This document shows positions 10,615-38,226 of a stretch of 64,000 nucleotides of DNA, in pieces. Source of the stretch: Dongshaea marina (GTDB taxonomy: Bacteria > Pseudomonadota > Gammaproteobacteria > Enterobacterales > Aeromonadaceae); NCBI RefSeq assembly GCF_003072645.1, contig NZ_CP028897.1, positions 2,927,658-2,991,657 on the forward strand. The letters are read 5' to 3'. Numbering within the stretch: position 1 is the stretch's first letter; the number at the start of each line of letters is the position of its first letter. The position numbers and the translations under genes are program-made. The notes below the pieces were generated by a model. It was not told the DNA's origin and did no database searches. It saw only the letters and a list, made by a program, of their open reading frames with translations.

Positions 10615-10640
10615 CTGTAGGTGGTGGAGCTGGGGGAGTC
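10615..10640. other. Left attachment site (ssrA 3' end duplicate)
   Basis: CTGTAGGTGGTGGAGCTGGG... repeats the last bases of ssrA and 7 bp beyond (37859-37885). The two copies match over their length except for five rather than six G in the tract. The repeat includes the CCA end of tmRNA, as expected for integration into ssrA. Confidence 0.85.
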
Positions 10641-11589: not shown

Positions 11590-12105
11590 TTATACCTGGG
11601 CAAAGGCACGCTTTGAGTAAAGGGGCGAATGGCTATCAAGCAGCGTCATATCCTTAACAGCCTTCTTGGTTGGGTTCAAAACAACATTGGCATAAGTGGA
11701 GCGGCGAACCTCATTGTGGGGCGAGCGAACCAGGCGGTCATTCATGGTGCAAGATGGCACTATCAGGCCGTCATACTGCTTACCCTCTAATATCTCACTG
11801 CCGAACTCCTGGGTGGCCTTTAGTGCCGGGTACTGCTCCCAGCCTTTGGGCAACTCTTCCGGGCGGATCTCATAAAGCCGGAGGGATGGCGACTCAAAGA
11901 CGCCCATGCAAAACATCAGGTTTGCTACCTTGGGGGATGGAGCATAGTTTGATAACTCCAGCATGGCGTTCTGAACATTCGAGCTCATGTAGAGGACGGG
12001 TGTCCCGGGCAAGTTCCAACGCGCCCCGTTCTTGTAGCTGTTCCCCTTCTCGTAGTCTTGCCAGCTATCAAGGTAACGCTTGTGTTGTGCTCTGAAAAGG
12101 ATCAC
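11590..12105 (-). CDS. RES-domain toxin (NAD+ phosphorylase family)
   Basis: A 171-residue RES-domain protein (PF08808). Characterised members of this toxin class degrade NAD+. Visible features are Arg5 (LFRAQH), GARWNLPGTPVLYMSSN at 27-43, whose Arg and Tyr are conserved in the family, and the C-terminal SPHNEVRRSTY block with the conserved Ser and Arg. Its ATG overlaps the antitoxin stop by 4 bp (ATGA), so translation is coupled. The antitoxin gene precedes it, the usual order for this system. Length is normal. Confidence 0.88.
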   Translation of the reverse strand: MILFRAQHKRYLDSWQDYEKGNSYKNGARWNLPGTPVLYMSSNVQNAMLELSNYAPSPKVANLMFCMGVFESPSLRLYEIRPEELPKGWEQYPALKATQEFGSEILEGKQYDGLIVPSCTMNDRLVRSPHNEVRRSTYANVVLNPTKKAVKDMTLLDSHSPLYSKRAFAQV

Positions 12106-14249: not shown

Positions 14250-14874
14250 CCGTGCCTGTAATTCAGGGAGCAAGACTATGAATACAACTTTATATCCAAA
14301 AGGACCAAGCCTAAACAAAGCGATTATTGACAGAATTGTGTACGTCAAGCAAGGGCAGGTTGTGACTGATAGCGCAATCATTGCAGACCACCTGAAAGTG
14401 AAGCATTGGCGAGTTTCTCGTGCTGTCGAAAGTGTCATTGATGACTACCCCCACAAAACTGTCGGATTAAGGGTCACAATTTGTGACCCTAAACTTCTAG
14501 GTTTTTCCGCCTCATGTTGGACAGTTACAAAGGAGTACCGTGGTCAGAAATACGATGTTTATGTGATGGATAAAGCGATGGTGTCCTTGGTGTCGATGCG
14601 CTTTACCACCAAGCAGGCCCGGCAATGGCAGCTTAGGTATTGCGTTTTTTGGTCCATCGCGATCACCCAATAAGATCGATAGCGATCACTGAATAATATC
14701 GATCGCGATCGCTCAATAATATCGATGGCGATCACTTTTGAGTTTTATATTATTGGGTGATCGGCATGAATATTATGCAGTCCCGACCGAAATGTTATTC
14801 ATTTCAACTCCCGTTTCGCAGGTGTTTTTTTAACCGGCTATGCTCTCTGTTTGACCTCGAGCGGAGAGCCAGCC

Positions 14875-16422
14875 ATGCCAACGGTGCATATCACCATGCG
14901 AAAACTCAAAGAGATCCTCAGACTCAAGTACCAAGGCGGCCTGAGTCACCGCCAGATCGCAAGCAGCCTGTCTGTGTCTCCGTCGACTGTGTCCAATTAC
15001 TGCAAAAGGGCCCAACAGATGGGGCTATGCCAATGGCCTCTGCCTGCTGAGTGGGATGAAGAGCGGCTGCGCCGTGAGTTCCTTGAGACCCGGATCACGG
15101 TTCGTCAGACACCTCCTCTGCCGGATTGGGCCGTGGCCCATCAGGAGCTCAGACGCAAAGGGATGACGCTACAACTCCTGTGGGAGGAGTATGCTGAGCG
15201 ACATCCCAAGAACCACTACAGCTATAACCATTACTGCATGCGTTATCGTGAGTGGCGTAAATGCCAGTCTCCCTCAATGCGTCAGAGCCATAAAGCCGGT
15301 GAAAAACTGTTTGTTGATTACTGCGGTCCAACCGTGCCCATCGTGGATCCGAGGACTGGGGAGGAGCGTCGGGCTCAGATCTTTGTCGCTGTGATGGGTG
15401 CATCCAGCTACACCTACGCCGATGCAACCTTGAGTCAGGGGCTGGAAGACTGGGTGATGAGCCATAAACGGGCCTTCGAATTTCTGGGGGGAGTACCAGA
15501 GATGATCGTTCCGGATAATCTCAAAAGCGGAGTCAGTAGAGCGTGTCGCTACGAGCCAGATCTCAATCCTACCTATCAGCAGCTGGCTGCACACTATGGT
15601 GTTGCAGTGCTTCCTGCCCGTCCTTACAAGCCCAAAGATAAAGCCAAGGCTGAGGTGGGCGTGCAGATCGTTGAGCGCTGGATCCTGGCAAAACTGCGCC
15701 ATGAGACCTTCTTCAGTCTGGCTCAGCTAAACCAGCGGATCGGGGCTCTGCTCACCGAGTTGAACAATCGCCCGTTCAAGAAGCTGCCGGGAAGCCGTAA
15801 ATCACAGTTTGAATTGCTAGACAAACCGGTGCTCAAATCGCTGCCTCAAAACCCCTATCAGTTCACCCGGGTGAAGGCGGTTCGGGTTCATATCGACTAT
15901 CACATCGAGCTCGACAAGCACTACTACTCGGTTCCCTATACCCTGCTCAAACGCAAGCTTGAAGCGCATATCTGCGACAACCTGGTACGGATCTATCATG
16001 GTGGTCGCTGTGTCGCGACACATCCACGCAGCTATCAGCAGGGAGGGCAAACCACCCACCCCGATCATATGCCGGTCGCACACCAAAAGCAGATGCAATG
16101 GACCCCGGGACGCTTTCTGAACTGGGCTCAGGAGATAGGCCCCTCCACGCTTGCGGTGATCAAACAGCTGCTCTACCGAAAGTCCCACCCGGAGCTTGGA
16201 TATCGGGCCAGCCTTGGGATCCTCAACCTGGAAAAGCGATATGGACGCCCCCGCTTAGAAGCGGCCTGCCAGCGAGCAGACCGAACGGGCGTTTACTATC
16301 AGAAAGGGATCCGCTCCATCCTGGAAAAGGGGCTGGATGGCCAGCCACTGCCCGAAACTCAGCCGGATCGTCTGGCGGAGCTCACTCACCTCAATATCCG
16401 TGGCTCAGGCTACTATCACTAA
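14875..16422 (+). CDS. istA: IS21 transposase IstA
   Basis: A 515-residue DDE transposase. An N-terminal helix-turn-helix lies in LSHRQIASSLSVSPSTVSNY; the integrase core follows, with LFVDYCGPTVPI (first Asp), [11 protein letters not shown] (second Asp) and [10 protein letters not shown] (Glu). I chose the Met at 14875, which has GGAGAG upstream, rather than 14851. istB begins 9 bp after the stop. This copy is intact, unlike the second copy. Confidence 0.93.
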   Translation: MPTVHITMRKLKEILRLKYQGGLSHRQIASSLSVSPSTVSNYCKRAQQMGLCQWPLPAEWDEERLRREFLETRITVRQTPPLPDWAVAHQELRRKGMTLQLLWEEYAERHPKNHYSYNHYCMRYREWRKCQSPSMRQSHKAGEKLFVDYCGPTVPIVDPRTGEERRAQIFVAVMGASSYTYADATLSQGLEDWVMSHKRAFEFLGGVPEMIVPDNLKSGVSRACRYEPDLNPTYQQLAAHYGVAVLPARPYKPKDKAKAEVGVQIVERWILAKLRHETFFSLAQLNQRIGALLTELNNRPFKKLPGSRKSQFELLDKPVLKSLPQNPYQFTRVKAVRVHIDYHIELDKHYYSVPYTLLKRKLEAHICDNLVRIYHGGRCVATHPRSYQQGGQTTHPDHMPVAHQKQMQWTPGRFLNWAQEIGPSTLAVIKQLLYRKSHPELGYRASLGILNLEKRYGRPRLEAACQRADRTGVYYQKGIRSILEKGLDGQPLPETQPDRLAELTHLNIRGSGYYH

Positions 16423-16431
16423 GGATCAAAG

Positions 16432-17187
16432 ATGACAGAACAACTCAAACAGCAACTTCGGGAGCTGAAACTAAGTGGTATCCGGGATGCCCTGGAAAGG
16501 CAACATCAGCAACCCGGGCACTACCAGGAACTCGGGTTCGAAGAGCGACTCAGCCTGCTGCTGGAGCAGGAGCTGACGGATCGGTCTCAGCGGCGGATCG
16601 AGCGCCTTATCAAGCAGGCCCGATTCCGGCTGCAGGCAAATCTGGAGCAACTGGATTATCGAAGTGATCGCGGCTTGCATAGAGCCCAGATCCGCTCACT
16701 GGCAGAGGGATACTGGCTTAGCCTGGGGCAGACTCTGATCCTGACCGGGGCGACCGGGTGCGGGAAAACCTATCTGGCCTGCGCCCTGGGCCATCACTTC
16801 TGTCTGCAGGGACTCGGGGTTCGCTACTTCCGGTTTAAAGAGCTGCTGGAGCAACTGCAGCTGGCTCAGGCTGATGGCAGCTATCGAAAGCTGATGGTTC
16901 AGTTGAGAAACACGCCGCTTCTGATCCTCGATGACTGGGGACTGGAGTCGCTGAATGCGCTTCAGCGTAGCGATCTACTGGAGTTAATCGATGCTCGCCA
17001 TGGTCACGGAGCCACACTGATCGGCAGCCAGCTTCCGCTGGAGCACTGGCACACAATGATCGGTGAATCAACCCATGCGGATGCGATCCTGGATCGTCTG
17101 GTTCATGGAGCGATCCGTGTAGAATTATGCGGAGAATCGATGAGAAAAATCACCGCAGAGTTGACGGATGCCGATCACTCAGGGTAA
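16432..17187 (+). CDS. istB: IS21 helper ATPase IstB
   Basis: A 251-residue AAA+ ATPase related to DnaC that assists IstA in target capture. Walker A is GATGCGKT (about residue 105), Walker B LLILDDWG (about residue 162). An AAGGATC site precedes the ATG. The two copies in the window encode the same protein. Confidence 0.95.
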   Translation: MTEQLKQQLRELKLSGIRDALERQHQQPGHYQELGFEERLSLLLEQELTDRSQRRIERLIKQARFRLQANLEQLDYRSDRGLHRAQIRSLAEGYWLSLGQTLILTGATGCGKTYLACALGHHFCLQGLGVRYFRFKELLEQLQLAQADGSYRKLMVQLRNTPLLILDDWGLESLNALQRSDLLELIDARHGHGATLIGSQLPLEHWHTMIGESTHADAILDRLVHGAIRVELCGESMRKITAELTDADHSG

Positions 17188-17711
17188 AAAATAACCCAGT
17201 CTGTGAGACGGGATGTTGAGGTGATCGACATCATATTATTCGGTGATCGCCATCGCGATAATACGCAGGTATGTTGCGGCACATGAAAAAATGGAGCAGT
17301 TCATTCTACAGTCAAAGCGAAACTCAGTAGATACGGCTTGGCAGCAACAGCGACACCACGAGATAGGCTTCCGCCACCAGTTGACCGACTGTATTAAGGC
17401 TTTCACCGAGTACGCAGATGAACAGGGTAGCCGCTCCGCTTCGCGATATTACAAGGCAATAACGGATCTGTGCCACAAAACTGTTGGTATCGGCTCTGGT
17501 CTGCGAGATGCCCTAACCCCTTTGCAGTTATCCCAGCTTGTCGTTGTTGAGAACGCAGCTATCAGTGCCATCTCATCCTCAATGGCCCGGGAGACCCCAT
17601 ATAAAGAGGTTTACCAAAATGTTAAGGCGGAGCTTGAGTGCCTGGCGATTGCTATGGGGACCTCAACCCCTGTAACAGGATAGGTTTAAAACCTACCCTA
17701 GACCCTCACTC

Positions 17712-17777: not shown

Positions 17778-17807
17778 CTGTGGGTGACATATAAGGATCT
17801 TCTTTTG

Positions 17808-20669
17808 ATGAACAAAAAACCCGCAACAGCTGGAGACAGCAAAAATACAGTTCGTGCGATTGCCTCCCCCCGGCCAGCAAAAGTAACTGTTGTCACAAGC
17901 ACGCAGCCAGCCAGGCTCACAAAGTCATTCCATATCAGCGCATCGGGCGAAATGGTGAAAGAGTCAGGCGGTCAACTGGTCACAGGGAGCTACACAACCC
18001 AAGAGTTCGATAATCTATCAGAGTTTTCAGAACTACTTACTGGCCTTGATACGAACCAGGCTCTCATCTTTGGGGTGAGTAACAAAGGCGAATCAGGGCG
18101 CATGATGAGCGAAAAAGAATGGATCCGGTCAGGGACGCCAGCTGATGTTACCTTGAGGCAGCTGCGCCATTTTGGGTGGAGCCGGGACAAGTCGGTGCTC
18201 ATGCTGGACTATGATCCACAGGCAGAAGCTCCGGCGCTGTCCAGGGATGAGTTGGTATCTACAATTCGGAATGCCATCCCAGAACTTCAATCTGTGGAGA
18301 TGCTTTGGTGGTGTAGTTCCAGCTCTAACATAAGCAACACCCAGACAGAAAAGGCTATAAGCGGTGTTCGCGGACAGCGGTTATATCTTCTCGTTGATAG
18401 CGGGGCTCGCATTGCCGACATAGGCAAACTAATAGACAAGCGCCTATGGGCTACTGGTTACGGGTACTTCGCAGTCAGTAGTAGCGGCTCACTTCTCAAA
18501 CGCTCCCTGGTTGATACGAGCGTATGGCAACCCAACCGCCTTGATTTTGCAGCTGGCGCAGAGTGTAAGCCACCGCTACAGCAAAGCCGGGGTTTGCCTG
18601 TGGTCATTCCTGGTGACAACCCTTTCATTCTCACTGAGTCAGTGCTGGAAAGCATCTCACACGATGACCTATCTAAACTTGATGCGCAGGTTCTTGAGCA
18701 AGAGGAGCAAAAAAGAGCCGAAGCTCGCCCTCAGCAGCTTATTAAGCGCAACATCTGGCTTGAGTCACAGACCACAAAGATAGTTGATGATGCCAAACTG
18801 GATGACAGAGAAGTAACTACCGAAGAGGCAAGGGAGTTAGCAACCAGGGCGCTAGATTCAGGGATACTGACGGGATCCTGGTTGATTCAACTTACTCGCA
18901 GGGATGGCGTTCAAGAGTCTGTTCCTGTTGGCCGCATTATGGATAGGCCAGCCTTGTACCATGGCGCAAAAACCAAAGACCCAACAGAGCCAGAGTATGA
19001 CGGCGGCCGATGGGTAGGGAAATTGTATCTTATGGATGGTAGGCCAACTCTCTACTCTCAGGCTCATGGCGGGAAGAGCTATAAGCTACTGCGCCAGGTT
19101 TCGGAAATTGAACTGGTGTCAGGTAAAACAGTGGACGCAACCCAAAGAACAATCGAGCTAATGAGTGTGATGCCGGATATTTTTGACCATGGGGATAAGC
19201 TGGTTCAAGTATCCGGTGGCGTGATGCGACCATTTACGCAAGGCTCTCTTAGGTTTTGGTTGGGCCAGCGCATACAATACTGGTCAAACAGGAAGTTAAA
19301 GAATGGGGAGCTCACCAAGGTGAACCGTGACGCCCCCAAAGAACTCCCGCTTATGGTGCTTGAGCTTGGGCGTGACCGGGGTTTACAGCAGATAAAGGCC
19401 GTAGTTACCGCCCCTGTACTTACGCACGACGGACGCCTACTAAACCGCCCTGGGCTTGATAGCCTGTCTGGTATTTTTTGCGCATTCAATCCTGACGACA
19501 CAGCACCCGTCCCCTCCAGGCCATCTGAACAGCAAATGCTAGATGCTGTTGATATACTCATGCGCCCGTTTCAGGACTTTGCATTTTGCACTCCGCTTGA
19601 CCGTTCTGTTCTCATGGCCGCGCTACTGTCGGCAGCTATCCGGCTTGCGGTCTCCACCTGCCCTGGCTTCGCATTCGACGCACCCATCCAAGGTTCAGGT
19701 AAAACTCTACTCGCCCGGTGTGTCGGTGCGCTCTGTACCGGATCAGACCCCGCAGCACTCCCACCACCGAAAGGAAATGATGAGGGAGAGGTACGAAAGA
19801 GACTTACAGCACTCCTGTCTGAGGGTTCCCGCTACTGTCTCTGGGATAACGTTCTTGGTGTTCTTGATTCAGCAGCTATTGCAGCAGCATTCACAAGCGC
19901 CAGCTCAAAGGACAGGATCCTGGGGCAAAGCTCTATGGTGGAGTCTGCAAATCACATGCTGTTCGTCATCACAGGAAACAATGTAAGCCTCGGCGGTGAT
20001 ATGCCCAGGCGTGTCTATACATGCCGAATAAACCCAGAAACAGACAGGCCGTATGCCAGGCGATTTAACTTCGATCCGCTACAGCACTGCTTGGCAAACC
20101 GTCAGCAAATGGTAGCGGCAGCTCTGACCATTATTCGTTACAGACAGCAAAGCCAAGAGCCATTAGCCGATGGATCCACAGCATCATTTGAACAGTGGGA
20201 TGACATGGTAAGGCAGCCCATAGCCCTGGTCTCTCGATTGCGCCCCCAAGATTATGGTGACGTTATGGAAGTGATGAACAATGCTCAGCGCTCAGACCCG
20301 GAGCAAGAGGATCTGCTCAACCTTATCAGGGGCGTTCATGCGTGTTTCGGGGTTAACCGGGTGACAGCAGCAGATATAAAAAACGCTATTACTGGCGACA
20401 GGAACATTCGACCAAAGGCACAAATATCCACTAACCAAAGAGATATTGAGTCGCTAAAGGATGCCCTTGAGTCAATATGTGGGCGACCGGCGCAGCAGTT
20501 AACATCAAAGACTATATCCCGCACATTACAGAACCGGAACGAGCGTCTTGTCCAAGGGTGCTGCTTGCGCATGGCCCCGTCTCGAAAAAACGGTGCCTCT
20601 TACTGGGTGGAGATTCGACAGAACTGTAGCGTGCTCGACAGCGGTTTGATTGCCGCCGTTCAAACTTAA
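17808..20669 (+). CDS. Large primase-helicase-like replication protein, 953 aa
   Basis: Probably the island's replication enzyme. Residues about 60-260 resemble an archaeo-eukaryotic primase-like fold: SVLMLDYDPQAEAP (about 130) recalls the acidic DxD metal motif, and VRGQRLYLLVD and RLDFAAG lie where similar proteins have their later motifs. The C-terminal part is an ATPase with Walker A QGSGKT (about 628) and a Walker B-like YCLWDN (about 674). Start at 17808 has AAGGA 10 bp upstream; a Met at 17784 is in frame but lacks a site. It follows leader repeat copy 2. The primase assignment is inference; the ATPase motif is clear. Confidence 0.65.
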   Translation: MNKKPATAGDSKNTVRAIASPRPAKVTVVTSTQPARLTKSFHISASGEMVKESGGQLVTGSYTTQEFDNLSEFSELLTGLDTNQALIFGVSNKGESGRMMSEKEWIRSGTPADVTLRQLRHFGWSRDKSVLMLDYDPQAEAPALSRDELVSTIRNAIPELQSVEMLWWCSSSSNISNTQTEKAISGVRGQRLYLLVDSGARIADIGKLIDKRLWATGYGYFAVSSSGSLLKRSLVDTSVWQPNRLDFAAGAECKPPLQQSRGLPVVIPGDNPFILTESVLESISHDDLSKLDAQVLEQEEQKRAEARPQQLIKRNIWLESQTTKIVDDAKLDDREVTTEEARELATRALDSGILTGSWLIQLTRRDGVQESVPVGRIMDRPALYHGAKTKDPTEPEYDGGRWVGKLYLMDGRPTLYSQAHGGKSYKLLRQVSEIELVSGKTVDATQRTIELMSVMPDIFDHGDKLVQVSGGVMRPFTQGSLRFWLGQRIQYWSNRKLKNGELTKVNRDAPKELPLMVLELGRDRGLQQIKAVVTAPVLTHDGRLLNRPGLDSLSGIFCAFNPDDTAPVPSRPSEQQMLDAVDILMRPFQDFAFCTPLDRSVLMAALLSAAIRLAVSTCPGFAFDAPIQGSGKTLLARCVGALCTGSDPAALPPPKGNDEGEVRKRLTALLSEGSRYCLWDNVLGVLDSAAIAAAFTSASSKDRILGQSSMVESANHMLFVITGNNVSLGGDMPRRVYTCRINPETDRPYARRFNFDPLQHCLANRQQMVAAALTIIRYRQQSQEPLADGSTASFEQWDDMVRQPIALVSRLRPQDYGDVMEVMNNAQRSDPEQEDLLNLIRGVHACFGVNRVTAADIKNAITGDRNIRPKAQISTNQRDIESLKDALESICGRPAQQLTSKTISRTLQNRNERLVQGCCLRMAPSRKNGASYWVEIRQNCSVLDSGLIAAVQT

Positions 20670-20704
20670 CATTCGGGTATTTTTTATACAAAAAAGATTA
20701 TAAA

Positions 20705-20749
20705 GGGGGTTTCGGGGGTTTCGGGGGTTTCGGGGGTTTCGGGGGTTTC
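20705..20749 (+). repeat. Five tandem GGGGGTTTC units
   Basis: Five exact 9-bp units directly after the primase-helicase stop. Five G5 tracts spaced by TTTC could form a G-quadruplex on the plus strand. Confidence 0.9.
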
Positions 20750-20938
20750 AGGGTGTTTCAATATCAATACCTTTTCAATTGTTATCCCGGATAACTCCTG
20801 CGCGTCTAGTTATTTTGAATCCCCCGAAGCACCCGAATCCCCCCTAGCACTCCAGTAAGGTTATAAATTGAACAAAAACTGAGTATTTTGCAGACATCAT
20901 ATCAACTAGGTCAGTTTTTAAGGGCATGGGTACAATAA

Positions 20939-20982
20939 CTACCGGGATAACCGTGACAAACTACCGGGATAACCGTGACAAA
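20939..20982 (+). repeat. Tandem 22-bp direct repeat
   Basis: CTACCGGGATAACCGTGACA plus AA occurs at 20939-20960 and again at 20961-20982. The GACCGTGACAAACTA part returns near 21440, and ACTACCG motifs recur at about 22289-22340, on the other side of the rha gene. Confidence 0.85.
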
Positions 20983-21544
20983 CTTAGACTCCAAAATAGG
21001 CTCTCAGCCCAGCTATGGCACGGCTCTCAGCGTTTTGCTATTTTTCCGTACTAGTATTTACTAATAAATACTATAGGAGCCTCCTTTGGGAGGGGCTCCA
21101 ACAACCCCCAGCCAGGCTCCCCCCAGACCGGCACAAGTCGAACCAACGAAAACCAAACGAACACCAGCAAGCTCTCAACAGAATGCGACCAAGAGGAACA
21201 AGCAGGTTGAGAACCACCCGAGAAGCGGCCGCTGTGAGTCCCTGAGATGAATGGGAGCGCGATCCAGGCTCCGACCCTGACAAACCTGTTTTAGGCTAAT
21301 AGTGGAGCCTACAGGAACGCATTTAGGCATTGAGCAGCCAGAAAAGATTGTAAAAGTTACGGGCTCTGGATAACTATACCGCTCCCCTGTAAGCGCAGGT
21401 TAAGCACATTCAAATAGTGCTCATGCGTGTTTCGGGGATGACCGTGACAAACTATAGTGCTCAAGAACACAAGCTGGCTCACATTCCAGAACGGCGCACT
21501 GTTCTTTGGTTGGTTAGCTGCCCAGATTATCCCCCAGGGCAGGA

Positions 21545-22132
21545 TCAGAGCTCAGCCTTAAGGGGATGTCGCCAAATATCGCCTTTGACCCCCTGTATAT
21601 GCTTCCAAATGTTACCGGAAACCTTAGTATTCCTTAGCAAAATGTATCCAAATATAACCATCCAACAGCAGAGGGGGAGGCTGGCTGAGCGCTTGGTTTG
21701 CGCCTGGTTTGCGCTGGTTTGCGCCTGGTCTTTCTTGGTCCGCTTGTAATCAGCCAGCTCCCGGCCACACATAAATGCCAGCTCCTTACTCTTCTTAATC
21801 TGGGATGCCAGGCGTTCCAGCTTTTTAATGCTTGGCTCCTGGTTTCGGGCCTCATACTCCATTGCATTGAACGCATCTATATAGCGTTTCTTCCACATCG
21901 CGGCCTTCTTTCCAGTGAACCCCATACAAAGGAACGCAAATCCATCTTTAGTCATCAGGAAACAAGGTGCGTCCTTGTTTTGCGCGGTTTTGTAGGAGGA
22001 GGGCGAGAAATATCGCTCTCTAAATTCGTCAGAACATTCCATCTGTCGGATGCTTTTCATCACATCTTTATGTGGCTTTCCGAACTTCTCAGCCACCTTG
22101 AGGGATAACACCATCGGCACACCATCCACCAT
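21545..22132 (-). CDS. Rha-family phage regulatory protein
   Basis: A typical Rha-domain protein: VLSLKVAEKFGKPHKDVMKSI near the N-terminus, FLMTKDGFAFLCMGFTGKKA and WKKRYIDAFNAMEYEAR in the middle, then a Gln/Ala/Thr-rich tail encoded by 11-bp DNA repeats. I place the start at 22132, where GAGGAG lies 9 bp upstream; the frame is open to 22210 but those codons also fall within repeats. Rha proteins affect phage lytic growth and need host factors in the described cases. One of three Rha-like genes in the island. Confidence 0.82.
   Translation of the reverse strand: MVDGVPMVLSLKVAEKFGKPHKDVMKSIRQMECSDEFRERYFSPSSYKTAQNKDAPCFLMTKDGFAFLCMGFTGKKAAMWKKRYIDAFNAMEYEARNQEPSIKKLERLASQIKKSKELAFMCGRELADYKRTKKDQAQTSANQAQTKRSASLPLCCWMVIFGYILLRNTKVSGNIWKHIQGVKGDIWRHPLKAEL
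21693..21743. repeat. 11-bp repeat array A (about 5 units)
   Basis: Units TTGGTTTGCGC, CTGGTTTGCGC and shorter variants, lying within the 3' end of the rha gene on the opposite strand. Same unit as array B. Confidence 0.75.
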
Positions 22133-22177
22133 GGTTACCAACTCCTCTATGACACAATTTTCATTAGGCGCTAGGGC

Positions 22178-22254
22178 CTGGTTTGCGCCTGGTCCGCACT
22201 TGGTCCGCACTTGGTCCGCACTTGGTTTGCGCTTGGTTTGCGCTTGGTGCGCAC
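22178..22254. repeat. 11-bp repeat array B (7 units)
   Basis: Exactly seven 11-bp units of consensus YTGGTyyGCrC (CTGGTTTGCGC, CTGGTCCGCAC, TTGGTCCGCAC twice, TTGGTTTGCGC twice, TTGGTGCGCAC). It lies upstream of the rha start at 22132. The period is close to one helical turn. Confidence 0.9.
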
Positions 22255-22612
22255 TCTCTCAGGGTGCGCACTTTGCCTCGAACATTAACTACCGGCCTGG
22301 AACTACCGACCTCCATTTTAAATACCGACCTGGAACTACCGGAATAATCCCGTCCTTGGGTTTAACCGTCCATCGACCCCGGCCAGAGAGCCATGCTCAA
22401 AGAGCGACGGCATTGTACCAGAGAACCCTCTACCGATTTTTCTGAATCCATCGAGCAAGGCGGATCCCCTTCTTGCATCGTCAAAACACCCAGTCTCAGT
22501 GAGTATCCCTTTTGATACCACCCATTATTGATACCAATCAATCGTAATGAGACCATCTATATGATACCATATTGTGATACCAATGTTTTTGAGACCATGA
22601 GAAGGCAGCACC
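22211..22612. other. Intergenic region between divergent rha and resolvase
   Basis: About 400 bp: the end of array B, two to three ACTACCG-containing motifs (22289-22340) and the six TGAKACCA boxes before the resolvase. No gene seen. Confidence 0.5.
22513..22597 (+). repeat. Six TGAKACCA boxes before the resolvase
   Basis: TGATACCA at 22513, 22529, 22562 and 22575; TGAGACCA at 22548 and 22590. Spacing is 13 to 19 bp, all in one orientation, ending 15 bp before the resolvase ATG. Either a res recombination site with accessory sites or an operator array. Confidence 0.8.
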
Positions 22613-23242
22613 ATGTTTGTACGCGCATATCTAAGAGCATCGACCAAAGAGCAGGACGCAGAACGCGCAAGGGAAAGGCTGATCCAGTTTGCAGAAGGGA
22701 ACAATCAGCAGATTGCATCCTTCTATGTTGAGAATGAATCTGGCACCAAGTTAGAACGCCCCGAGCTCAACCGCCTACTGTCCGACTCACACCCAGGTGA
22801 CATTATCCTGATAGAGTCAGTGGATCGCCTTACCCGTTTACAACGTGAACAGTGGGAGCTACTCAAGCAGCGCATGGGTGAAAAGCGGATCCGAGTAGTT
22901 GCCCTCGACCTACCTACCTCTCACCGAGCTCTGACCCAGACAGAGAGCGATGGGTTCACCGATGCCATGCTGGACGCTATCAATGGAATGATGCTGGATA
23001 TGCTGGCCGCCATCGCACTAAAGGACTACGAACAAAGACGCCAACGACAGGCAGAAGGATTGAAGCGAGCAAAAGACCGGGGTGTTCTGACAGGACGCAA
23101 AGCAGATCCAAAGCTACACGCCCAGGTAGAGGCACTACTTGAAGCAGGAAAGAGCTGGAACCAGATAACCGAACTGGCCGATGTATCACGAGCCACAGTT
23201 TCACGAATCGCCAAGAAGATGAAAAAGGAATCTATCCAATGA
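22613..23242 (+). CDS. Serine recombinase (resolvase/invertase family)
   Basis: A 209-residue small serine recombinase. The N-terminal catalytic domain shows YLRASTKEQDAERA (catalytic Ser10), IESVDRLTRL (conserved SVDRLTR motif) and the long E helix; the C-terminus has RATVSRI, a helix-turn-helix for DNA binding. It could resolve replicated dimers or invert DNA. Six repeated boxes upstream are its likely binding sites. The next gene starts in the ATGA overlap. Confidence 0.9.
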   Translation: MFVRAYLRASTKEQDAERARERLIQFAEGNNQQIASFYVENESGTKLERPELNRLLSDSHPGDIILIESVDRLTRLQREQWELLKQRMGEKRIRVVALDLPTSHRALTQTESDGFTDAMLDAINGMMLDMLAAIALKDYEQRRQRQAEGLKRAKDRGVLTGRKADPKLHAQVEALLEAGKSWNQITELADVSRATVSRIAKKMKKESIQ

Positions 23243-27672: not shown

Positions 27673-28995
27673 TCAGGCATACGAATACCCATCGCACGAG
27701 TGAACCTTCGTGCAATACCTATGACTCACATCTCTTTTCCCTGCTGAATCTTGCAGGCTAAACGTACCTGTTTTTCTCACGGAGATTCGGCCTAGGTATT
27801 TGCCTGCATACTTACCAACAGGCACGACAGCTTTAACTACATCCCCAGTCCTGAACCCTTTAACCCGACTGCAACCTTTCGCTTTGGTTCTTGGGAAACC
27901 GTACTTATCAGGCAGCGTCATTTGCCGGGAGCCGTGACCGGTTGCTTTAATTGCCAGCGGCACAGCACTAGAAGGGATAAACACTTGCTGGCCAGTCTCA
28001 CCCACGCAAGCAGCATCCAACCAGTGGTCTTTTTGATAACCTTGCTGCGACCGATTGAACTTGGTTCGTCCGCCACTCCAGAAAGTAGTGGGTAGGCCGG
28101 TCGCCTTCATCACATCGCCAATCCGATACCGGGTAGCATTAACTGCCGCCGCATCTCGCATTGAAGGGCTCCGGCCAGCTATGACCTTTGGTATTCTGGT
28201 TGCCCTTGCCTTGTTGAGTTTGGAGCGTGACTTGCTGACAGCTTTCAACCAATCGGATAGCAGTGTGGCCCCTTTATCCTCATTGCAGGTTCGGCATGAG
28301 GTGACTAGGTTCTTAGCGCTATCGCTGCCGCCTTTAGCTCTGGGTTGCACATGGTCGATGTTCAGAACAGGGTCACCGGAAGCGCCGCCGCAATATCGGC
28401 AAGTGTGCCCGTCCCGCTGCAACAAATACTCACGGAGTTCATAGCCATGCAAGCTGCCTTGCTGATACTCGACACCGGCAATCTTCGGGTTAGCCATGAG
28501 TTGCATATCAAAGCGAACGGTCTCAATGGCAATGTCAGTTACCGGGCAGAGTCGGATTAGCCGATAAGCCCATGTCTCGCAGTTGTGAACCCGGCTCATC
28601 AAGCTGGGAGCAAGCCAGCCTTTGGGCTTCGCTCTATTGTCGAATCGCGCCGGGCGATAGCGAGTCTTTCGGTTGCGCCTCGCTCTGCGCTGGGCTGCTC
28701 TCGATGACAAGCTTTCGCTAATCGCATGGCCGCGATGAGATAGGTTGCCAGCCCAAACAAGGCGGATGCCGTTATCCCCGTGAACAGTCAGAGCCATCCC
28801 CGTTGTCTTGCTCCCGGGGTCTAACTTCAACTCGGTCCTTTGTAGTTCCCCACCTTCCCGCTCTTTCAGGATTATCGTGAACGGGAACCGGCGAAAGACA
28901 GCCGCTTTCTTTTCTTTGAGTAGCTCCCGCGCCCTTGCCGGATGGCAAGGCATAAGCGGTTGCTTCTTACTACTCAAAACTAAAACTCGTTGCAT
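27673..28995 (-). CDS. iscB: RNA-guided nuclease IscB
   Basis: 440 residues, the usual IscB size. Domains in order: PLMP motif at 13-16; RuvC-I with Asp59 (LKLDPGSKTTG); arginine-rich bridge helix at about 99-115; RuvC-II with Glu158 (IAIETVRF); HNH with CRYC (199-202), DH 214-215, Asn229 and CRTC (234-237); RuvC-III HWLD with His324 and Asp327; then a C-terminal TAM-interacting region. All catalytic residues are present, so it looks active. IscB, related to the ancestor of Cas9, cuts DNA using an omega-RNA encoded upstream. GAGGTAA precedes the ATG. Confidence 0.95.
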   Translation of the reverse strand: MQRVLVLSSKKQPLMPCHPARARELLKEKKAAVFRRFPFTIILKEREGGELQRTELKLDPGSKTTGMALTVHGDNGIRLVWAGNLSHRGHAISESLSSRAAQRRARRNRKTRYRPARFDNRAKPKGWLAPSLMSRVHNCETWAYRLIRLCPVTDIAIETVRFDMQLMANPKIAGVEYQQGSLHGYELREYLLQRDGHTCRYCGGASGDPVLNIDHVQPRAKGGSDSAKNLVTSCRTCNEDKGATLLSDWLKAVSKSRSKLNKARATRIPKVIAGRSPSMRDAAAVNATRYRIGDVMKATGLPTTFWSGGRTKFNRSQQGYQKDHWLDAACVGETGQQVFIPSSAVPLAIKATGHGSRQMTLPDKYGFPRTKAKGCSRVKGFRTGDVVKAVVPVGKYAGKYLGRISVRKTGTFSLQDSAGKRDVSHRYCTKVHSCDGYSYA

Positions 28996-29241
28996 CGTGT
29001 TACCTCTAATGCAGTCTCGGGTTTCCCCGGTAAAAATCGCATCGACAATGTTATGGAAAGGTTTGATGGCAACAGCACTGGCTTAACCTCTTACACCTGT
29101 TTAGCTGTTACCCGCAGAGCGTGGGACTTGCGAAGGTCATCCCACGGTGCCTATGGATTCTTTCCTAACGTAGCCAGTTAAGGCTTAGTCTGGTCAACAT
29201 GGGCTTTTACAAGCCCGGTCCTTTAGGGCCGGGTAGTTGAC
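28996..29241 (-). ncRNA. Omega-RNA scaffold region of IscB
   Basis: About 246 bp between the element's left end and the iscB start with no open frame. The 5' end folds into CCCGGCCC-TAAA-GGACCGGG (29214-29233), followed by GGGCTTGTAAAAGCCC (about 29199-29214) and a longer hairpin GTGGGATGACC...GGTCATCCCAC-like pairing near 29120-29150. This is where IscB omega-RNAs lie, and the opening hairpin is characteristic. The guide would be the flanking DNA just upstream, about 29242-29257. Confidence 0.8.
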
Positions 29242-29449
29242 CTTGGACACACCGATAGGATCCCAGTCGTAGAACAGGATTGCGTCAATTTGGTGGAACA
29301 GTTCACTGACCATGCTCGGCCTCCTGTTTCAGCCTCATGGCCAGCTCAAAGAACTCGGCCGACACCAGGTGCGTATTATCGCGATGGCGATCACCGAATA
29401 ATATGATGTCGATCACCTCAACATCCCGTCTCACAGACTGGGTTATTTT

Positions 29450-30205
29450 TTACCCTGAGTGATCGGCATCCGTCAACTCTGCGGTGATTTTTCTCATCGA
29501 TTCTCCGCATAATTCTACACGGATCGCTCCATGAACCAGACGATCCAGGATCGCATCCGCATGGGTTGATTCACCGATCATTGTGTGCCAGTGCTCCAGC
29601 GGAAGCTGGCTGCCGATCAGTGTGGCTCCGTGACCATGGCGAGCATCGATTAACTCCAGTAGATCGCTACGCTGAAGCGCATTCAGCGACTCCAGTCCCC
29701 AGTCATCGAGGATCAGAAGCGGCGTGTTTCTCAACTGAACCATCAGCTTTCGATAGCTGCCATCAGCCTGAGCCAGCTGCAGTTGCTCCAGCAGCTCTTT
29801 AAACCGGAAGTAGCGAACCCCGAGTCCCTGCAGACAGAAGTGATGGCCCAGGGCGCAGGCCAGATAGGTTTTCCCGCACCCGGTCGCCCCGGTCAGGATC
29901 AGAGTCTGCCCCAGGCTAAGCCAGTATCCCTCTGCCAGTGAGCGGATCTGGGCTCTATGCAAGCCGCGATCACTTCGATAATCCAGTTGCTCCAGATTTG
30001 CCTGCAGCCGGAATCGGGCCTGCTTGATAAGGCGCTCGATCCGCCGCTGAGACCGATCCGTCAGCTCCTGCTCCAGCAGCAGGCTGAGTCGCTCTTCGAA
30101 CCCGAGTTCCTGGTAGTGCCCGGGTTGCTGATGTTGCCTTTCCAGGGCATCCCGGATACCACTTAGTTTCAGCTCCCGAAGTTGCTGTTTGAGTTGTTCT
30201 GTCAT
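29450..30205 (-). CDS. istB: IS21 helper ATPase IstB (copy 2)
   Basis: Encodes the same 251-residue protein as the gene at 16432-17187, with Walker A GATGCGKT and Walker B LLILDDWG. Its partner istA in this copy is frameshifted, but a functional IstA could be supplied by copy 1. Confidence 0.95.
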   Translation of the reverse strand: MTEQLKQQLRELKLSGIRDALERQHQQPGHYQELGFEERLSLLLEQELTDRSQRRIERLIKQARFRLQANLEQLDYRSDRGLHRAQIRSLAEGYWLSLGQTLILTGATGCGKTYLACALGHHFCLQGLGVRYFRFKELLEQLQLAQADGSYRKLMVQLRNTPLLILDDWGLESLNALQRSDLLELIDARHGHGATLIGSQLPLEHWHTMIGESTHADAILDRLVHGAIRVELCGESMRKITAELTDADHSG

Positions 30206-30214
30206 CTTTGATCC

Positions 30215-31761
30215 TTAGTGATAGTAGCCTGAGCCACGGATATTGAGGTGAGTGAGCTCCGCCAGACGATCCGGCTGAGTTTCGGGCAGTGGCTGGCCAT
30301 CCAGCCCCTTTTCCAGGATGGAGCGGATCCCTTTCTGATAGTAAACGCCCGTTCGGTCTGCTCGCTGGCAGGCCGCTTCTAAGCGGGGGCGTCCATATCG
30401 CTTTTCCAGGTTGAGGATCCCAAGGCTGGCCCGATATCCAAGCTCCGGGTGGGACTTTCGGTAGAGCAGCTGTTTGATCACCGCAAGCGTGGAGGGGCCT
30501 ATCTCCTGAGCCCAGTTCAGAAAGCGTCCCGGGGTCCATTGCATCTGCTTTTGGTGTGCGACCGGCATATGATCGGGGTGGGTGGTTTGCCCTCCCTGCT
30601 GATAGCTGCGTGGATGTGTCGCGACACAGCGACCACCATGATAGATCCGTACCAGGTTGTCGCAGATATGCGCTTCAAGCTTGCGTTTGAGCAGGGTATA
30701 GGGAACCGAGTAGTAGTGCTTGTCGAGCTCGATGTGATAGTCGATATGAACCCGAACCGCCTTCACCCGGGTGAACTGATAGGGGTTTTGAGGCAGCGAT
30801 TTGAGCACCGGTTTGTCTAGCAATTCAAACTGTGATTTACGGCTTCCCGGCAGCTTCTTGAACGGGCGATTGTTCAACTCGGTGAGCAGAGCCCCGATCC
30901 GCTGGTTTAGCTGAGCCAGACTGAAGAAGGTCTCATGGCGCAGTTTTGCCAGGATCCAGCGCTCAACGATCTGCACGCCCACCTCAGCCTTGGCTTTATC
31001 TTTGGGCTTGTAAGGACGGGCAGGAAGCACTGCAACACCATAGTGTGCAGCCAGCTGCTGATAGGTAGGATTGAGATCTGGCTCGTAGCGACACGCTCTA
31101 CTGACTCCGCTTTTGAGATTATCCGGAACGATCATCTCTGGTACTCCCCCAGAAATTCGAAGGCCCGTTTATGGCTCATCACCCAGTCTTCCAGCCCCTG
31201 ACTCAAGGTTGCATCGGCGTAGGTGTAGCTGGATGCACCCATCACAGCGACAAAGATCTGAGCCCGACGCTCCTCCCCAGTCCTCGGATCCACGATGGGC
31301 ACGGTTGGACCGCAGTAATCAACAAACAGTTTTTCACCGGCTTTATGGCTCTGACGCATTGAGGGAGACTGGCATTTACGCCACTCACGATAACGCATGC
31401 AGTAATGGTTATAGCTGTAGTGGTTCTTGGGATGTCGCTCAGCATACTCCTCCCACAGGAGTTGTAGCGTCATCCCTTTGCGTCTGAGCTCCTGATGGGC
31501 CACGGCCCAATCCGGCAGAGGAGGTGTCTGACGAACCGTGATCCGGGTCTCAAGGAACTCACGGCGCAGCCGCTCTTCATCCCACTCAGCAGGCAGAGGC
31601 CATTGGCATAGCCCCATCTGTTGGGCCCTTTTGCAGTAATTGGACACAGTCGACGGAGACACAGACAGGCTGCTTGCGATCTGGCGGTGACTCAGGCCGC
31701 CTTGGTACTTGAGTCTGAGGATCTCTTTGAGTTTTCGCATGGTGATATGCACCGTTGGCAT
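30215..31761 (-). pseudogene. istA: IS21 transposase IstA (copy 2), frameshifted
   Basis: Identical to copy 1 except that the tract at 31146-31150 has five bases where copy 1 (15485-15490) has six. The frame then ends after FLGEYQR instead of reading FLGGVPEM. The C-terminal 306 codons remain open. A one-base difference between otherwise identical copies fits either a recent mutation or a base-calling error. Confidence 0.9.
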
Positions 31762-32103
31762 GGCTGGCTCTCCGCTCGAGGTCAAACAGAGAGCATAGCC
31801 GGTTAAAAAAACACCTGCGAAACGGGAGTTGAAATGAATAACATTTCGGTCGGGACTGCATAATATTCATGCCGATCACCCAATAATATAAAACTCAAAA
31901 GTGATCGCCATCGATATTATTGAGCGATCGCGATCGATATTATTCAGTGATCGCTATCGATCTTATTGGGTGATCGCGATGGACCAAAAAACGCACCAGG
32001 TAGGCAACTGTCTCCCCTTTGCGCTGGATCTCCACAGGCGCATCCTGAGCGGCCCGGATCGTCTTGTTTGCTTCTCTGGCGAGCTGAGCAACGTTAATCT
32101 TTT

Positions 32104-35005: not shown

Positions 35006-35563
35006 TCATTGCAGGGCTCCAGGTATACCAAAGCGAGCCATCCCTACTTGAGTTAGCTCTGTTTTGGTTATTTTTTGTGTGGATAACAACTCAGATGGAT
35101 TGGTATTGGATCTTAATAATGGATCATTACTAATAACGGATCGGGGGTCACCGTTGACCTGTCCACTCCCCTGTTTTTTGTCCGATTTGACCTGTCCACT
35201 CTCTGATTTGACCTGTCCACTCCCCTGTTTTTTGTCCGATTTGACCTGTCCACTCTTGGGTGGATGGGTCACTGTTGAGCTATCCACTATTTTTGAGGTG
35301 AACTGATACTGATTTGACTGGTTTTTACGCCCATCACTGTAGTTACCAGCCCTTTTTCGTCGGGTTAGCCAGCCATCATCAACGAGTCGCTTGATACACC
35401 GCTTCACAGTGCTCTCGGACTGCGTGGTCATCTTCGCTATCGTTTCGATGGACGGCCAACAAGCGCCATCATCTCGGCAAAAATCAGCAAGGCAAAGGGC
35501 CACAATCCTTTCTGGCATAGGGATACTCGATTCCCACACAGCTCTTGTGATTGCTATCCCCAC
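35006..35563 (-). CDS. Replication protein O-like winged-helix protein
   Basis: 185 residues, GTG start overlapping the alpA stop by 1 bp. The N-terminal domain (MPERIVALCLADFC, CWPSIETIAKMTTQSESTVKR, LVDDGWLTRR) is the winged helix found in lambda O-like and plasmid Rep proteins. The middle is a repeat (SGQVKSDKKQGS, SGQVKSES) whose DNA carries four GACCTGTCCACTC units, and the 3' region holds a DnaA box. The layout matches a lambda-like origin inside the initiator gene. The tail is unrelated. Function inferred. Confidence 0.72.
   Translation of the reverse strand: MGIAITRAVWESSIPMPERIVALCLADFCRDDGACWPSIETIAKMTTQSESTVKRCIKRLVDDGWLTRRKRAGNYSDGRKNQSNQYQFTSKIVDSSTVTHPPKSGQVKSDKKQGSGQVKSESGQVKSDKKQGSGQVNGDPRSVISNDPLLRSNTNPSELLSTQKITKTELTQVGMARFGIPGALQ
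35078..35255. other. Putative replication origin with four iterons
   Basis: GACCTGTCCACTC begins at 35156, 35189, 35210 and 35243; the units are 33, 21 and 33 bp apart. An AT-rich stretch (35060-35140) adjoins, with a perfect DnaA box TGTGGATAA at 35078-35086. All lie within the O-like gene, as iterons do in lambda O. Confidence 0.6.
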
Positions 35564-35919: not shown

Positions 35920-36498
35920 TTAGTCGATGAAAACTTGAGCAATATATTTGCGAATAGAGTCTACACTTCGAGGAACCTCACCGCTTTCATATATCCGTTG
36001 AGCTATCTCACGTTGGGATAATGTTGGATCCTCGCTAAGAAGCTGAGCAGCTATCTCTTGAGCTTTCTGGACTAAAGGCTTCGCCTGTGCACTACGCTTC
36101 AACCCGCTAACAGCACCAGCCTTTGAGGCCCACTTTTGGCGGTTTTCCGGTGTGGTTTTTTCTTTTTTTAAGCCGTGTATTTCCACAGCCAATTGTGCCC
36201 AGCTCTCTTTAAGCTGATTTGTGCTAGCCTCATAACTCTTGGCTAGCCCAAGCATTTCTTCAAGTTCAATTGCACGCCGTTCCGAAATTTTTGATAACAG
36301 ACTCTGTGTTGATCCAAAAGCAACCAACCTTGTGATTACGTCACAAAGGAGCTCTAGCTCATAAGTCACTTCAATCTCTTGACCCTTAAAGGTTTCCTTA
36401 AGAACCTTTTTTGCAGATTTGCTTGCCTCTACATGATCCGCACCATCCACCATTAACGTACAGAGGCTCTTACTCAGCTCAGATGCATCCATAGACAT
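35920..36498 (-). CDS. Hypothetical protein next to the integrase, 192 aa
   Basis: Start taken at 36498 (MSMDASELSK), overlapping the integrase stop by about 20 bp; an upstream Met at 36531 is possible. Long helices (coiled-coil-like, SKISERRAIELEEMLGLAKSYEAS) and a C-terminal segment LSQREIAQRIYESGEVPRSVDSIRK that looks like a helix-turn-helix. Perhaps a DNA-binding partner of the integrase. Family not recognised. Confidence 0.6.
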   Translation of the reverse strand: MSMDASELSKSLCTLMVDGADHVEASKSAKKVLKETFKGQEIEVTYELELLCDVITRLVAFGSTQSLLSKISERRAIELEEMLGLAKSYEASTNQLKESWAQLAVEIHGLKKEKTTPENRQKWASKAGAVSGLKRSAQAKPLVQKAQEIAAQLLSEDPTLSQREIAQRIYESGEVPRSVDSIRKYIAQVFID

Positions 36499-37702
36499 GC
36501 GCCTGTCCTCCCGACTGTTGGATGTGGTCACTCCACCATGCCATCATTGCCCGGCGTCGCTTCAGGTAATCAGCTCGATTATAAGCTCGCCTGACTTCGT
36601 TTTTGTCCATGTGACTCAGTGCTGCTTCGATAAGGTCTGGGTCGAATAGACCTGATTCATTGAGAGCGGTGCTTGCTAAGGACCTCAAACCATGCGCTAC
36701 CAGTCTATTTTTGTAACCACATTTCCTAAGCATCTTGTTCACCGTTGCAGATGATGCGCGCTTGTTTAGGTCAGAGTCCGACACAAAGATCCACTCTGTG
36801 TGCCCACTGATAGGGCGTACTGTATCCAGTATTTTTAAACACTGCGGTGTCAGAGGGATTGTGTGTGTCTTGCCCATCTTCATTTTGCTAGCCGGGATAA
36901 CCCAGACATTGCGTTCAAGGTCTAGTTCATCCCATCTGGCAGTGGATGCCTCCCCCGGACGAGACATGGTGTGCAGCTGCCACTCGAACATGGCCTTAGT
37001 AATAATCCGTGACTTGGATTCAGAGACTCGCTTCAATAGCTCACCCAATTCATCGGGCCTAAGTGTTGGCAGATGCTCTTTCTTCGGTGATTTGAATACC
37101 GAACGGATCCCCATCAAAGGGTTGGCTTGAATAAGGCCAGCATTAACTGCATACGTCATCACCTCATTAGCTCGCTGGCAAAGGCGTTTCACGCTCTCCA
37201 ACTTCCGTTGCTTTGCTAATGGCTGTAGAGCTTCGATAGCTAAGGGAGCTGTGATTTTATGAATGGGAACATCACCAATCATTGGGAATAGATGATTTTC
37301 AAGTGAGCTCCACACATCAAAAGCATAGTCTTCAGTGAGGCTCTCTCGTTTCACCTCAAACCATAGCGAAGCGATATACTGAAAGGTATTTAGATGGGCT
37401 CCCTCCGCCTCCCTTCGTTGTCTATCTCGGTGCTCTTTCGGATCAACGTCTTGAGCCAGAAGCACCCTATACTCTCGCCGGAACTCTCTAGCTTCAGACA
37501 ATGATGTTTCTGGAAAAGAGCCTAACCCTATCTGTGTGCGCTTTTTTATGAAGGGGCGCTGATAATTGAACAGCCATTTTTTGCTACCGTTTGGGTGAAC
37601 ACGCAGGCGGAGACCTTCGCCATCAACCAGGACATACTCTTTGTCCTTTGGCTTAGCGGCCTTAATCTCTGTTGTTGTGAGCGGTTTTGTTGTCCTGCCC
37701 AT
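36479..37702 (-). CDS. Tyrosine integrase (P4-type)
   Basis: 407 residues with the DUF4102 arm-binding N-terminus (LTTTEIKAAKPKDKEYVLVD, LRVHPNGSKKWLFNYQ), a SAM-like core-binding domain and a catalytic domain showing SRPGEA (Arg), AHGLRS (His and Arg) and RRAYNRADY (nucleophile Tyr). P4-type integrases commonly target tRNA and tmRNA genes. The Met at 37702 has GGAGAAAG upstream; a Met at 37741 lacks a site. It lies just inside the right att repeat. Confidence 0.93.
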   Translation of the reverse strand: MGRTTKPLTTTEIKAAKPKDKEYVLVDGEGLRLRVHPNGSKKWLFNYQRPFIKKRTQIGLGSFPETSLSEAREFRREYRVLLAQDVDPKEHRDRQRREAEGAHLNTFQYIASLWFEVKRESLTEDYAFDVWSSLENHLFPMIGDVPIHKITAPLAIEALQPLAKQRKLESVKRLCQRANEVMTYAVNAGLIQANPLMGIRSVFKSPKKEHLPTLRPDELGELLKRVSESKSRIITKAMFEWQLHTMSRPGEASTARWDELDLERNVWVIPASKMKMGKTHTIPLTPQCLKILDTVRPISGHTEWIFVSDSDLNKRASSATVNKMLRKCGYKNRLVAHGLRSLASTALNESGLFDPDLIEAALSHMDKNEVRRAYNRADYLKRRRAMMAWWSDHIQQSGGQAHVYGCI

Positions 37703-37796
37703 AACTTTCTCCAGCAAAGGTACACAGAACCCGTGTACCAATTCATGTACCCAAAATTGTAGGATGTCAGCACATCTCTACGGACGTTCTGGTAAT

Positions 37797-37858: not shown

Positions 37859-37885
37859 CTGTAGGTGGTGGAGCTGGGGGGAGTC
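37859..37885. other. Right attachment site within the ssrA 3' end
   Basis: CTGTAGGTGGTGGAGCTGGG... spans the last 20 bases of ssrA and 7 bp beyond, matching the left repeat at 10615-10640 but for one G. Confidence 0.85.
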
Positions 37886-38226
37886 GAACCCCCGTCCGAA
37901 AAACCTACGCCTTCGGTACTACATGCTTAGCCCAATCTTGACATTCGCCGGCAAGCTGCTGATGGGCAAGCTACTGACCGACTAGCCTAATTCGATTTAA
38001 CGCTTCAGACCCTAGGCAAGGTATCCACGCGATCCTGTGAGGGATGACCCTCAAAGCCCCTAAGTCACAGGCAAGTTAGGGAAGAGGGGCCTTTGCAGGT
38101 TATTAAGCTGCTAGAGCGTAGTTGTCTTCGTTTGCAACTATTAGTTTGCGGCTTTTTTACGAGGCCAACCGCACCTCGGCATGCACCTTGGGTTTCGTGA
38201 ATTCCGTCGAGTCCTGAATCAGCCCC
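37866..38226 (-). ncRNA. ssrA: tmRNA (ssrA)
   Basis: 361 nt. The 5' GGGGCTGATTCAGGA and the 3' TTCGACTCCCCCCAGCTCCACCA-type end form the alanyl-tRNA-like domain. The tag frame (38103-38135) reads ANEDNYALAA then stop, resuming at GCA. It rescues stalled ribosomes with SmpB, whose gene lies 76 bp upstream. The island uses its 3' end and leaves the gene intact. Confidence 0.97.

Follow-up and report, generated by a model that had tools for sequence, protein, structure and literature searches.

An 11-bp unit, YTGGTYYGCRC, forms two tandem arrays, both on the plus strand, one at each end of a rha gene in the 64-kb stretch of DNA analysed here (the window). The arrays are real, unusual for a rha gene and private to this locus. 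With moderate confidence, we regard them as a young, locus-specific minisatellite that arose by slippage or unequal exchange and was copied or joined between both ends of rha. A mobile-element regulator with its tail and stop codon overwritten by a repeat common to its 5' side would be a small case of phage-gene remodelling.

One repeat unit on both sides of rha

The gene and the arrays are located as follows. Strands are those of the feature entries.

21545-22210, minus strand: rha open reading frame (Phage_pRha, PF09669 match); likelier start ATG 22132, chosen from the sequence
21693-21745, minus strand: array A, five units within the 3' end of rha, translated as the peptide DQAQTSANQAQTK
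22178-22254, minus strand: array B, located 5' of rha, with seven units exactly 11 bp apart, overlapping the first codons if GTG 22210 is the start
22247-22271, no strand: outer edge of array B, with GTGCGCAC twice (22247-22254 and 22264-22271); a hairpin is possible

Nine exact copies of the unit were found in the window and all of them lie inside the two arrays, whereas dinucleotide shuffles of the window (n = 100) contained 0.66 on average and 3 at most. An earlier note on this DNA had reported two arrays of one 11-bp repeat flanking rha, and this count bears it out. The units of array B start at 22178, 22189, 22200, 22211, 22222, 22233 and 22244. When array B was compared with itself at a lag of 11, 56 of 66 positions matched; in 20 simulated 64-kb sequences, the top-scoring stretch of 66 bases had 29-33 matches. 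The earlier description of seven exact-length units upstream of the start therefore holds for number and spacing. Six of the seven units match the consensus exactly but the last one carries one mismatch, and the array is wholly upstream only if ATG 22132 is used. For array A, five or so units making a repeated protein tail had been described. Five are present and encode DQAQTSANQAQTK, but only those at 21693, 21704 and 21714 are exact, those at 21725 and 21735 being degenerate, and the spacing alternates 11/10/11/10 instead of keeping a constant 11. The proposal that an 11-bp period keeps the sites on one face of the helix is weak because of this alternation in A. The alternating steps of A add up to 42 bases (21+21), so that the reading frame is kept.

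Identical 11-mers are common to A and B, and whole identical units recur. Two whole-unit types, TTTGCGC and CCGCAC, can be distinguished, with three linked positions that differ together. Short inverted pairs of GCGC and of GTGCGCAC are present at the unit edges and could promote slippage. No known RNA family matched at the arrays. With head-to-tail units between 10 and 100 bp, repeated above chance, the arrays agree with a minisatellite (VNTR) in their structure.

The tail of rha is replaced by repeat sequence

The rha product matched PF09669 with 100.8 bits (curated cut-off 29.9) and thus belongs to the family. Its longest open reading frame begins at GTG 22210, inside array B. An in-frame ATG lies at 22132 with AGAGGAG nine bases ahead, and on these sequence grounds it is favoured over the GTG as the start. 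Array B would then be located 46-122 bases upstream and is most likely noncoding.

Colinear Rha proteins extend 19-21 residues beyond the K-R-x-K-K region, where array A begins. The native tail past KK measures 19 residues in phage Rao1 (L094), 20 in L100 and 21 in L176. In the window rha, K-R-x-K-K is directly followed by DQAQTSANQAQTK and then by about 48 residues without a family match. The domain itself is intact and the C-terminal tail native to the colinear subgroup is missing. Since the colinear tails continue past K-R-x-K-K and the window has DQAQTSANQAQTK at this place, we conclude that array A replaced the native tail together with its stop codon.

A 10-bp stretch of the outermost degenerate unit of A, which runs through conserved rha codons, recurs in units of B. 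The codons AAG CGG ACC AAG contain GCGGACCAAG, which is also present in the CCGCAC-type units of B. This stretch may be a seed or junction site, which is plausible, or may match by chance. Because it lies inside the codons for the conserved Rha KRTKK, the last degenerate unit of A could be part of the original coding region. A starting idea, that E. coli phage proteins commonly carry such repeat peptides, gained no support from the searches. Two E. coli Rha matches (H5 and H7) that reach into the N-terminal repeat are without repeats there.

The repeat is private to the locus

Two adjoining units were found in 1 of 198 genomes, which is the genome of the window itself; the 197 others lacked the pattern, and so did the 5.1-Mb own genome outside the two arrays. 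Single units were somewhat more frequent elsewhere in that genome than a reversed-pattern control (35 against 20 genome-wide), which counts against a minisatellite. Among 394 genomes of the same order, 34 including the own genome had a Rha match; loci were available for 30 places, and none of the 29 non-own ones carried even one unit beside rha. Viral rha genes were represented by 80 loci kept of 579 relatives and scanned over the span between 350 bases ahead of the match and 250 past the open reading frame. None of them had a 9-12 bp tandem array, and a single stray unit was seen in two of the 80, both at the same place. Tandem Repeats Finder, applied to 12 further rha loci, detected other repeats and no YTGGTYYGCRC repeat. 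Unrelated repeats occur within 1.5 kb of some rha loci, for example a 23-bp array in L090 (784-986) and a 24-bp array in L093 (884-947). No paper on rha with tandem repeats or on 11-bp intragenic repeats was among the literature matches listed, which does not prove absence.

A relaxed skeleton of the repeat matched four viral contigs, including a small-terminase gene and a DnaD-like replication gene. The reversed and permuted control skeletons matched 11 and 5 contigs. As controls match about equally often, the four matches carry no weight. The terminase-small-subunit match (L007) was dropped as a sign of one shared site because controls give as many arrays, and the replication-gene matches (L012, L061) were dropped as well, the reversed control also hitting L011 and L012. 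A further 45 motif matches in genome contigs from many phyla came without a control scan, so no inference was drawn from them; open frames were inspected at 18 loci among these 45 and the four viral ones. The suggestion of a spreading binding site thus found no backing in the same-order loci, the viral loci, the 197 other genomes or the skeleton comparison, and sites common to relatives of Rha, as an operator array would show, were not seen. The earlier note had itself named repeats absent in relatives as the finding that would speak against it, and within the collections searched they are absent.

An island with its own probable origin

The arrays lie among the following features.

10615-10636 and 37859-37880: 22-bp direct repeat CTGTAGGTGGTGGAGCTGGGGG
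37866-38226: tmRNA gene, into which the second copy of the 22-bp repeat extends
36479-37741: tyrosine integrase, adjoining the right 22-bp repeat
17784-20669: primase-helicase-like gene, within the island
22613-23242: serine recombinase, within the island
RusA-like gene, within the island
14641-17267 and 29370-31995: IS21-type element, two inverted copies within the island, with 99.96% identity across 2627 bases and a single gap

The repeat pair, with its right copy reaching into the tmRNA gene, and the adjacent integrase indicate that a 27-kb island has very probably inserted at this gene, with the 22-bp repeats probably being its attachment sites. In the right-hand IS21-type copy the transposase gene is split into two open reading frames. 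The open reading frame at 17243-17683, beside the left copy, matches the C-terminal half of the Rha-like family phrog_2657 and is perhaps a second, truncated regulator. Near the left island end a RES-domain protein is encoded (11590-12105, Pfam match), which we presume could be the toxin of a toxin-antitoxin pair. An RRXRR/HNH protein at 27673-29241, which we take to be IscB-like, is accompanied by a HEARO RNA at 29030-29241. Around rha, ACTACCG and ACCGTGACA repeats are scattered on both sides (20937-20984, 21440-21455 and 22286-22345), and six GA[TG]ACCA repeats at 22514-22597, shortly before the serine recombinase gene, are perhaps the sites of that enzyme. Other satellite-type elements carry rha too, AH14b being an example described in excerpts of PMC4936722.

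A probable replication origin was located at 20704-20844, immediately 3' of the primase-helicase gene. It consists of G-rich 9-bp direct repeats (GGGGGTTTC from 20704 on), a spacer and an inverted C-rich arm that ends at about 20844. For comparison, the 260 bases 3' of the longest open reading frame at 20 primase-helicase loci were examined by script against 5' control stretches; at some loci this frame is possibly a gene other than the primase. Inverted 9-11 bp tandem repeats were detected 3' of the frame at 10 of 20 loci and at 0 of 20 in the 5' controls; seven of these control stretches did not reach 260 bases. One of the ten matches (L023) was A+T-rich and was discounted; by eye, G-rich inverted repeats that the script had missed were seen in L015 and L023. 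No 11-bp array of YTGGTYYGCRC was seen beside the primase homologues, where this different repeat set is conserved, and the arrays were therefore rejected as the primase origin. Conservation in place beside an initiator gene in relatives, which characterises iterons, was not found for them. Judged from sequence, the origin of the island is likely the repeat set 3' of the primase-helicase gene, distinct from the 11-bp arrays. Origins of SaPI and SCCmec helicases lie at the same place, 3' of the gene, according to passages of PMC7581432. The O-like replication gene at 35006-35563 contains GACAGGTCAA four times (gene offsets 314, 347, 368 and 401), probably as iterons of its own.

Alternative explanations

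Rha homology ends near the beginning of A on one side and a little short of B on the other, and array units and rha codons have 10 bp in common, as would be expected if the arrays were recombination borders and a rha cassette had inserted into a single longer array of which A and B are the two parts. The rha gene of phage Rao1 also stands alone, oriented against its neighbours. However, the collections searched yielded no relative in which the array is unsplit or the flanks are the same, blastn of 20670-22620 gave no matches in plasmids, and in phages the best 10 of 12 records align only with part of the rha coding region; we consider this origin doubtful. A bolder version, in which the arrays would be active cassette borders, short GC-rich repeats with which a satellite-type island captures and swaps regulator genes through units and matching end codons, with the helical spacing doubling as an operator, is highly improbable.

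Cooperative binding of Rha or another small island regulator, to B at the promoter and to A in the gene, would agree with the near-helical spacing, with the adjacent regulator gene and with the portrayal of PF09669 members as phage regulators in excerpts of PMC4936722. Yet neither the 29 rha genes from the same order nor the 80 viral ones have such an array beside them, no promoter-like site was found next to B, and A alternates its spacing and is mostly coding, which makes operators unlikely. If Rha does bind the arrays, they would give a first handle on the DNA seen by Rha, which has no present support. That the arrays could be iterons of the island origin is very unlikely in our judgement. 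Helical spacing and a primase-helicase gene 1 kb away are compatible with it, and two replication genes, O-like or DnaD-like (L012, L061), likewise carry tandem 11-bp units within the gene, but the G-rich repeats with their inverted C-rich arm fit an origin better and the O-like gene of the island has repeats of its own. To our knowledge, rha is not an initiator.

A local minisatellite accounts best for the arrays. Slippage, the other origin proposed in the earlier note, or copying agrees with the identical units across A and B, the two linked unit types, the absence from relatives and the overwritten rha tail. A short stretch would have been multiplied into tandem 11-bp units via slipped-strand copying or unequal exchange. 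Copying or joining would also have linked the two sides of rha, with the 10-bp match between units and the R-T-K codons as its probable route. On the 5' side this would have left the seven-unit array, and on the 3' side it would have displaced 19-21 or so residues and the stop, so that the frame now closes with a short stretch of repeats followed by the 48 or so further residues. We infer this mechanism and its direction, including the role of the 10-bp match, from the arrangement of the units. A dedicated binding protein would not be required, and the arrays presumably lack a function. Selection could be an alternative cause of the exact 11-bp spacing over seven units in B and of the kept frame in A.

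Comparison with known systems

Iteron origins, to which the lambda O-gene origin belongs, resemble the arrays in having short direct repeats, spaced at roughly one turn of the helix, close to replication genes. The arrays differ from them in that the repeat set immediately 3' of the island's primase-helicase gene is the better origin candidate. The same likeness holds for the iteron origins served by a replication helicase in SaPI and SCCmec, as far as excerpts of PMC7581432 describe them. PARCEL coding repeats are like array A in that tandem repetition gives a gene an additional repeated peptide; in PMC2996958 they are described across diverse microbes, whereas our arrays belong to a single locus. 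Bacterial minisatellites are likewise tandem, partly coding, built of whole-unit duplicates and absent in relatives. In contrast to these, the arrays described here place one unit at both ends of a single gene.
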